Source: Thermococcus paralvinellae
Lineage (GTDB): Archaea; Methanobacteriota_B; Thermococci; Thermococcales; Thermococcaceae
DNA length: 64,000 bases
Reading direction: 5' to 3'
NCBI RefSeq assembly: GCF_000517445.1
Contig: NZ_CP006965.1
Location: 1,650,681 to 1,714,680, forward strand
The position numbers were made by a program, and so were the translations under genes. The first letter of the stretch is position 1. The number at the start of each line of letters is the position of its first letter. Shown piece after piece: positions 39,630-41,690 of this stretch. The notes under the pieces are model-generated. The model was not told the origin of the DNA. It searched no databases and was given only the letters and a program-made list of their open reading frames with translations.

Positions 39630-39780
39630 GCTATCACCAAGAGAAGAACGAGTTTGAAATATTTAACACTATACCTACAAAAGCAGCGATACCAATAAAC
39701 CACCACTCCTAAACACTCTTATAAACCCCTCAAAACTAATAGTATTTCCGAACACATCTAGCTGATAAACGGTGATAAAA

Positions 39781-40323
39781 ATGCTCACCTTAGCGTTATA
39801 CAACTCATATGACCCTAAGAGACTCCATGAGGCACATTTAAGGGCAATTGCCAGAGCAGCTCCAATTTGCTATGCATTCGATTTTCACTTAGCACTGGTT
39901 GGATTCCCATTTAATGAGAAACCTCTCGACTTGGCAGAGAGAATATCTGAAAATACAACAATTGGAGAAGGAGGAAAATACCTTCTTGAGCTTGCTAAGA
40001 AAAATAAGTTCCATCTGTTAGAATTTCCAAAAAGAGGGTTTCCACCCCAATTTGGCAATATAATAGCAACAACCAGAAAGCCCAATGAGGATAAAGAAAT
40101 AACTGCCATAGAAGTTGCTAAAAGAGCCCTAAAAGGAGAGAGCTTTATGTTGATTGTCGGCCTGGGAAGACACGGACTTCCAAAGGAAATCTTTAAGTTA
40201 GCCGAGTACCACTTGGATATAACAGATGGCAGAAGAATAAGCCTAGAAACATGCACTGCCATAGGAGCAATCCCGACTAAAATTAGAACCTTAATGGAGG
40301 CGCTAAAATGGATGAAAAGATAA
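39781..40323 (+). CDS. DUF531 family protein (SPOUT-like)
   Basis: A 180-residue archaeal DUF531 protein. The C-terminal half has GESFMLIVGLGRHGLPKEI and ISLETCTAIGAIPTKI, like the deep-knot SAM-binding loop of SPOUT methyltransferases. An RNA-methylating role is inferred only. The start ATG 39781 follows GGTGATAAAA. The signal peptidase gene starts within its last 16 bases, so they form an operon. Confidence 0.8.
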   Translation: MLTLALYNSYDPKRLHEAHLRAIARAAPICYAFDFHLALVGFPFNEKPLDLAERISENTTIGEGGKYLLELAKKNKFHLLEFPKRGFPPQFGNIIATTRKPNEDKEITAIEVAKRALKGESFMLIVGLGRHGLPKEIFKLAEYHLDITDGRRISLETCTAIGAIPTKIRTLMEALKWMKR

Positions 40324-40781
40324 AAAACTGGAAAAATGACCTTGCATTCATTATAATCTCACTAATTGTTGTATTTGCAATACATAACGGACTAAAAATA
40401 GTCCTGCACACCGATTCACCCCTTGTCATAGTTGTAAGCGGTTCAATGGAGCCCGTGTTTTATAGGGGCGATGTCGTGCTTCTCAAAGGGGTTAAGCCAG
40501 AGGATATAAAAATCGGTGATGTAGTTGTGTACAAAAGGCCATACACTAAGTATCCTATAATCCACAGGGTTAGGGCAATTGAAAAGCTTGTGTTGAATGG
40601 TAAGGAAGAGCTTTGTTTTGTTACTTGGGGAGACAACAACCCTGCACCTGATCCGTATCCATATGGTGGAAAAATTCTGCCGTGTGTTCCACAGGAGGCC
40701 GTTGAGGCAAAAGCTCTGCTCGTCTTTCCAAAGATTGGTCTGATTCCGCTGGAAATCAGGGAAAGGCTAGGCTTAACTTGA
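40308..40781 (+). CDS. Archaeal-type signal peptidase I
   Basis: A 157-residue S26B signal peptidase of SipW/ER type. One N-terminal membrane segment (LAFIIISLIVVFAIHNGL) anchors the catalytic domain outside. SGSMEPV supplies the nucleophile Ser46, and YPIIHRV has His86 in place of the bacterial Lys. WGDNNPAPD contains the conserved Asp109 and Asp115 region. It removes signal peptides from secreted proteins, of which several are encoded in this window. The start lies inside the DUF531 gene, where GGAGGCGCTAAA acts as ribosome site. Confidence 0.92.
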   Translation: MDEKIKNWKNDLAFIIISLIVVFAIHNGLKIVLHTDSPLVIVVSGSMEPVFYRGDVVLLKGVKPEDIKIGDVVVYKRPYTKYPIIHRVRAIEKLVLNGKEELCFVTWGDNNPAPDPYPYGGKILPCVPQEAVEAKALLVFPKIGLIPLEIRERLGLT

Positions 40782-40787
40782 ATATTT

Positions 40788-40844
40788 CGGGATGATGTGA
40801 GGGTAGGTAGCTGAGCTGTGATGACCTAATCGGCCCCTGACCGC
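40788..40844 (+). ncRNA. C/D box guide sRNA (plus strand)
   Basis: The box order is C ATGATGT (40792-40798), 12-base guide, D' CTGA (40811-40814), 3-base spacer, C' GTGATGA (40818-40824), 12-base guide CCTAATCGGCCC, and D CTGA (40837-40840). Spacing is exactly that of archaeal C/D sRNAs. Only the last base of box C departs from consensus. GG/CC flanks can form a short terminal stem. The D guide would direct 2'-O-methylation at the fifth base, complementary to C in GGGCCGATTAGG. This resembles, from memory, a segment of archaeal 16S rRNA. It lies just after the signal peptidase stop and may be made from that transcript. Confidence 0.85.
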
Positions 40845-40898
40845 TCAGTGGTGACCGCTTTCATCACCCTTCAGAAGGGCTTAGGCTTCATCATCGCA
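40841..40898 (-). ncRNA. C/D box guide sRNA (minus strand), convergent with its neighbour
   Basis: On the minus strand: C ATGATGA (40888-40894), 13-base guide AGCCTAAGCCCTT, D' CTGA (40871-40874), 3-base spacer, C' GTGATGA (40861-40867), 12-base guide AAGCGGTCACCA, and D CTGA (40845-40848). All four boxes match consensus. Its D box is only 4 bases from the D box of the plus-strand sRNA, so the two RNAs meet tail to tail. A TATA-like TTAAAAAGAA about 30 bases upstream (near 40920-40932) could drive it. The predicted targets should be sought in rRNA and tRNA. Confidence 0.83.
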
Positions 40899-40940
40899 CA
40901 TCTTTTTAAGCTCTAAATTCTTTTTAATTTTGGTGATATA

Positions 40941-41690
40941 ATGAGGTTCATTCCACTAATTATCGCCCGTCCTGAAGTTCAAATGGCAATTGACGAAGCC
41001 ATAATGAGAGCCCGCATAGAAGGAAGAGTCGAAGACACTGTTAGATTGTATGTTTTCAAGCCAAGCTCAATAACTATCGGCAGATTTCAGAGTGTTGAGC
41101 ATGATGTTAACTTAGAGAAATGCCAAGAGCTTAACATTCCAGTTGTGAGGAGGATAACCGGCGGAGGGAGTGTTTTCCACGACGCTTATGGAGAGATAAC
41201 TTACAGTGTTGTAGTTAGCGAGGATTTGCATTCAGATTTAAGAGATATATACAAAAGCTATCGCTTGCTAGCTTCTCCCTTAGTTGAAGCTTTGAAGGAA
41301 CTTGGAGTTAAAGCTGAGTTTTCTGGATTGAATGACATAACAGCAAATGGGAAGAAAATCAGCGGTTCTGCACAAACGAGGAGAAAAGGAGTCATTCTGC
41401 AGCATGGAACCTTTATGTATGCAACGAGGCTTGATATTCTAGCCTCAGTGCTGAAAGTCTCAAAGAAAAAGCTTGCCGATAAAGGAGTAAAGAGTATCTG
41501 GGAGAGGGTTACGACGCTTGAGAGGGAAGGGATAAAGCTCAGCAGAAACGATGCTTATGAGCTTTTAAAGGAGAAGTTTTTCGAAGAATTTCCGCTTGAA
41601 GAAGGTGAACTTACAGATTATGAGCTTGAACTCGCTGAAAAACTGATTGAAGAGCGTTATGGGAGAGATGAGTGGAACTTCATGAAATAA
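40941..41690 (+). CDS. lplA: Lipoate-protein ligase/octanoyltransferase-like protein
   Basis: A 249-residue LplA-family catalytic domain. Lipoate-binding motifs are RRITGGGSVFHDAYGEI (71-87), with the conserved NGKKISGSAQ around the acyl-AMP lysine (Lys139). It attaches lipoate or octanoate to carrier proteins such as GcvH or E2-like partners. The accessory domain of bacterial LplA is absent, as usual in archaea. The next gene is a radical SAM protein, which fits lipoyl assembly on the carrier. The start lies after GGTGATATA; TATA-like TTTTTAA is near 40902-40930. Confidence 0.88.
   Translation: MRFIPLIIARPEVQMAIDEAIMRARIEGRVEDTVRLYVFKPSSITIGRFQSVEHDVNLEKCQELNIPVVRRITGGGSVFHDAYGEITYSVVVSEDLHSDLRDIYKSYRLLASPLVEALKELGVKAEFSGLNDITANGKKISGSAQTRRKGVILQHGTFMYATRLDILASVLKVSKKKLADKGVKSIWERVTTLEREGIKLSRNDAYELLKEKFFEEFPLEEGELTDYELELAEKLIEERYGRDEWNFMK

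Follow-up and report, generated by a model that had tools for sequence, protein, structure and literature searches.

In a 64,000-nucleotide stretch of the Thermococcus paralvinellae genome (the window; source genome of the Thermococcus family, a single contig of 1.96 Mb), two genes for C/D box small RNAs (sRNAs) meet tail to tail between a signal-peptidase-like open reading frame (ORF) and the lipoate ligase gene lplA. Our analysis, based throughout on sequence comparison and computation, indicates that these are very probably two ordinary archaeal C/D box guide RNAs for 2'-O-methylation, which abut through the attachment of each to a neighboring gene. The two meet because the plus-strand RNA, sR36, goes with the gene on its left and the minus-strand RNA, which resembles sR44, with lplA on its right. 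The contact seems to be a side effect of these attachments, not a regulatory device.

Anatomy of the two RNAs

The gap between the flanking ORFs extends from 40782 to 40940 and measures 159 bases, one fewer than in the original prediction, which had correctly placed two facing C/D sRNAs in it. The series of boxes and guides that it described for both strands proved exact to the base, with guides of 12-13 bases and D'-C' spacers of 3 bases (GCT in sR36, AGG in the sR44-like RNA), as did the separation of the opposing D boxes by four bases. Both RNAs show the archaeal C/D organization, namely boxes in the order C, D', C', D, guides within 9-16 bases and a short D'-C' spacer. Scanning the 64 kb of the window with a double-guide pattern returned these two RNAs alone, while 100 dinucleotide shuffles of the window returned no match. 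The elements, with boxes read from the sequence, are as follows.

40788-40842, plus strand: C/D box guide sRNA sR36, assigned by its match to Rfam RF01124 and conservation in the family
40792-40798, plus strand: box C of sR36, ATGATGT
40799-40810, plus strand: D' guide of sR36, pairing with 16S ribosomal RNA (rRNA) 115-124, predicted Cm117
40811-40814, plus strand: box D' of sR36, CTGA
40818-40824, plus strand: box C' of sR36, GTGATGA
40825-40836, plus strand: D guide of sR36, pairing with 16S 232-243, predicted Cm235
40837-40840, plus strand: box D of sR36, CTGA
40841-40844: CCGC between the D boxes, two bases belonging to each sRNA end
40843-40898, minus strand: sR44-like C/D box guide sRNA, assigned by its position beside lplA and the alignment of its D half to sR44
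40845-40848, minus strand: box D of the sR44-like RNA, CTGA
40849-40860, minus strand: D guide of the sR44-like RNA, pairing with 16S 500-512, predicted Gm504
40861-40867, minus strand: box C' of the sR44-like RNA, GTGATGA
40871-40874, minus strand: box D' of the sR44-like RNA, CTGA
40875-40887, minus strand: D' guide of the sR44-like RNA, conserved, no target found
40888-40894, minus strand: box C of the sR44-like RNA, ATGATGA

Identity and conservation

The plus-strand RNA scored 78.5 bits against the Rfam covariance model of sR36 (RF01124; cut-off 55), which places it in that family. The likeness covers the whole length, including both guides and all boxes, and the differences are confined to scattered single bases.

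For the minus-strand RNA, gene position provided the identification. In each of the nine genomes with an sR44 above the Rfam cut-off, all from a related genus (g3) inferred from its sR44 match to be Pyrococcus, this gene sits close upstream of lplA and on the other strand. Because the minus-strand RNA occupies the same position, this comparison makes it the positional ortholog of Pyrococcus sR44, one that carries another D' guide. Besides the divergent position just upstream of lplA, the two share box C', box D and the RNA ends, and their D guides are nearly identical (AAAGCGGTCACC versus AAAGTGGTCACC), whereas the D' guides are not the same (AGCCTAAGCCCTT versus ATCGGTCTTGT). The sR44-like RNA is conserved in dozens of relatives, where its boxes and D guide have a mean majority base of 0.80-0.99 and its D' guide one of 0.95 (37 rows).

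The D' guide sequence of sR44, ATCGGTCTTGT, recurs as the D guide of another C/D sRNA of the window's genome (G000:C1:749005-749063, L246), so guide modules have moved between RNAs. A C/D sRNA in G088 (L225) likewise carries it as its D guide.

Guide targets

Guides were searched against the 16S, 23S and 5S rRNAs, 44 transfer RNAs (tRNAs), the signal recognition particle (SRP) RNA and the RNase P RNA, and compared with shuffled guides (sets of 150 and 300); the shuffle counts and E-values are small-sample. Three of the four guides were complementary to the organism's 16S rRNA next to box D or D', beyond shuffled guides. The D guide of sR36 forms 12 consecutive Watson-Crick pairs with 16S 232-243, a score matched by 1/150 and 0/300 shuffled guides. 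The original prediction was right that this guide resembles a 16S segment; the exact target that it stated is corrected here to CGGCCGATTAGGT, against which pairing skips the base adjoining box D and then runs over 12 bases. Scores of 10.4 were obtained both for the D' guide of sR36 against 16S 115-124 (matched by 2/150 and 3/300 shuffled guides) and for the D guide of the sR44-like RNA against 16S 500-512 (2/150 and 0/300). The latter segment was the best match, among the RNAs searched, for the D guides of both the minus-strand RNA and sR44.

The proposed search of the guides against rRNA and tRNA thus succeeded for three guides and failed for the D' guide of the minus-strand RNA, for which nothing convincing was found in the 44 tRNAs or in the 5S, SRP and RNase P RNAs. 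Position 15 of the SRP RNA, the best match of the Thermococcus version of this guide, was rejected owing to internal mismatches.

Arrangement of the genes in relatives

We next considered the arrangement across the family, where one or both RNAs are present in 75 of 94 genomes, and compared 60 stretches fetched from 51 relatives. At almost every locus, sR36 is found behind the signal-peptidase-like gene, often starting at the ORF end. The sR44-like gene precedes lplA wherever the search found it, also when unlinked from sR36, with the exception of L105 (G018). There, only the 3' half of the gene is left, joined to unrelated DNA, and this remnant is probably a broken copy. Several genomes have the two genes unlinked, tens of kilobases apart, and in the four genus g5 genomes examined lplA comes directly after sR36 with no sR44-like gene.

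Whenever both RNAs lie on one stretch, their order is convergent. The spacing is zero in four genomes, namely that of the window, G089, G090 and G093, the last from another genus. In 26 genomes, 31-974 base pairs (bp) separate the RNAs, running from right after the CTGACC of sR36 to right before the GCTCAG of its partner, which is the site taken by CCGC in the window. As these 26 genomes keep both RNAs with repeat DNA between them, the comparison indicates that the abutment is dispensable.

Palindromic blocks make up this spacer DNA as a mosaic (loci L066-L068, L071-L092 and L125); its recurring hairpins, such as AAACTTTGC-NNNN-GCAAAGTTT and GGGGGCTCCGCCCCC, among others, are also present at other sites of those genomes. 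The AAACTTTGC-NNNN-GCAAAGTTT pattern, allowing up to 2 mismatches, gave 18 matches in G026, and control patterns gave 0 in 12 genomes. By ORF calling too crude to establish a preference for convergent gene pairs, 6/20 of the palindromic repeats lay between convergent genes. Rfam matched sR36 alone on the repeat-bearing loci, and the hits listed by a literature search for palindromic intergenic repeats of Thermococcales included nothing specific. The G026 spacer measures 702 bp versus 31 bp in its close relative G029, a difference that would follow if recombination between terminal hairpins had produced the short form.

A tree of the DUF531 and signal-peptidase-like proteins puts G093 near the window's genus, with some forks open. 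The abutment may therefore be old in that group, with repeat DNA inserted later; the tree does not settle the direction of change.

Using a general C/D profile, we obtained 44 matches in the window's genome, mostly below the cut-off, with the present pair as the one tail-to-tail arrangement. A tandem C/D sRNA pair at G000:C1:1122953-1123066 (L248) has about 1 base between its members by profile coordinates, so close packing is not special to the convergent site.

Possible consequences of the tail-to-tail contact

Taking the RNA ends as two bases past box D gives lengths of 55 bases for sR36 and 56 for the sR44-like RNA. RNAs of these lengths do not overlap, and mutual complementarity between them was rejected, their pairing being weaker than in 485/500 shuffles. 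The alignments of relatives revealed no sequence common to the orthologs beyond two bases past box D, and in Sulfolobus acidocaldarius, mutational work summarized in PMC7994747 found flanking sequence changeable without effect on maturation. Both observations argue that a special stop signal is not required. The absence of a conserved tail is in keeping with ribonucleoprotein (RNP)-protected trimming as outlined in that review, and if the RNA ends are set by the RNP itself, genes packed this closely are to be expected.

The original prediction saw possible mutual antisense control in this contact. Read-through precursors would indeed be complementary: extending each tail by 14 bases creates a 28-base overlap with a predicted duplex energy of -64.9 kcal/mol. 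Furthermore, no promoter of sR36 was pinpointed, and seven snoRNAs of T. kodakarensis are convergent to antisense RNAs (PMC4247193). A control device, in which read-through antisense to the partner would determine the relative amounts of the two guides, nevertheless appears very unlikely: abutment is restricted to four genomes, both RNAs persist elsewhere spaced or unlinked, the 55- and 56-base forms pair worse than shuffles and the tails are not conserved. The claim of antisense control was therefore not upheld. That converging read-through couples two 16S methylation guides by antisense RNA within the zero-spacing lineages we regard as highly improbable.

Promoters and neighboring genes

Outside the two RNAs, the locus contains the following features.

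40308-40781, plus strand: signal-peptidase-like ORF, with sR36 at its 3' end
40902-40909, plus strand: probable lplA TATA box, flanked by the start and the TATA box of the sR44-like RNA
40920-40927, minus strand: probable TATA box of the sR44-like RNA, with its center some 26 bases before the RNA's 5' end
40941-41690, plus strand: lplA-like lipoate ligase gene, divergent neighbor of the minus-strand RNA

The stop codon at 40781 and the lplA start at 40941 bound the gap. The left ORF matches Peptidase_S26 weakly (20.2 bits, under the curated cut-off of 22.9), while the right one matches Pfam LplA-B_cat with 187 bits. Upstream of the signal-peptidase-like gene and sR36 lies a DUF531 gene (39772-40323, 264 bits), whose product weakly matches SPOUT methyltransferases and may be an RNA methylase encoded next to a methylation guide.

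The TATA-like TTAAAA of the sR44-like RNA is kept in every examined row that has the RNA and lost in the four g5 genomes that lack it. The lplA TATA box is kept with and without the RNA, those four genomes included. Since the former vanishes with the RNA while the latter stays, the sR44-like RNA is most likely transcribed from a promoter of its own. The divergent promoters of the two genes are interleaved within 40898-40941 of the window. They might compete or share TATA-binding protein (TBP), thereby linking guide RNA levels to expression of the lipoate ligase, and the position of the lplA TATA box and the conservation of the divergent neighborhood, including the nine Pyrococcus-like genomes, would fit such coupling. 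We consider it unlikely, as lplA retains its TATA box where the RNA is absent and small genomes often have compact divergent promoters.

For sR36, we found no obvious promoter of its own at the locus. Its most likely source is the upstream transcript, an origin described as common for archaeal sRNAs (Tripp et al. 2017, as reviewed in PMC7994747).

Assessment of the proposed pathway

Two conventional guide RNAs would operate here as follows. sR36 would be released from the 3' end of the DUF531/signal-peptidase-like transcript, and the sR44-like RNA would be transcribed from a promoter interleaved with that of lplA. Each would be cut and trimmed to a body protected by L7Ae, Nop5 and fibrillarin; with no repeat DNA between them, the RNAs would abut. 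sR36 would guide fibrillarin to the predicted Cm117 and Cm235 of 16S rRNA and the sR44-like RNA to the predicted Gm504.

Several results weigh against this account. The minus-strand RNA falls below every Rfam cut-off, its best scores being 39.4 bits for sR1 and 37.4 bits for sR44 (RF01129; cut-off 45). Its D' guide has no rRNA target above chance, as 98/150 shuffled guides score equally, and the duplexes of the sR36 D' guide and the sR44-like D guide contain a mismatch or G-U pair, internal or terminal. In G093, the sR44-like partner has diverged and lies about 1.8 kb from lplA. Finally, most of the circular sRNAs in a T. kodakarensis list (PMC9014305) measure 60-71 bases, more than the 55 and 56 assumed here, so there could be a few bases of overlap between the mature ends.

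The sub-threshold scores and the orphan guide would also suit one or both RNAs being chance motifs or decayed relics. This is exceedingly improbable given the conservation of the boxes and D guide of the sR44-like RNA in the 37 rows, the absence of the double-guide pattern from all shuffles, and the retention of box C, the D guide and the terminal bases on either side of repeat DNA.

Significance and comparison with known systems

Under the interpretation as two ordinary guide RNAs, the Thermococcus-side sR44, missed by Rfam because one guide was exchanged, is recognized, and it offers a clear comparative example of how guide modules turn over. With the abutting pair there is also a natural test of whether archaeal C/D sRNA 3' ends need sequence beyond box D; the relatives suggest that they do not.

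The locus resembles the convergent snoRNA/antisense pairs of T. kodakarensis (PMC4247193) in that a transcript converges on a C/D RNA. Here, however, the converging gene is a guide RNA too, and not a single base is left over between the genes. With the 3'-overlapping C/D sRNA genes of Tripp et al. 2017, as presented in PMC7994747, it shares the expected processing from a longer transcript, whereas in the window a short spacer follows the stop codon, unlike many Thermococcus loci, where the sRNA begins at the ORF end.
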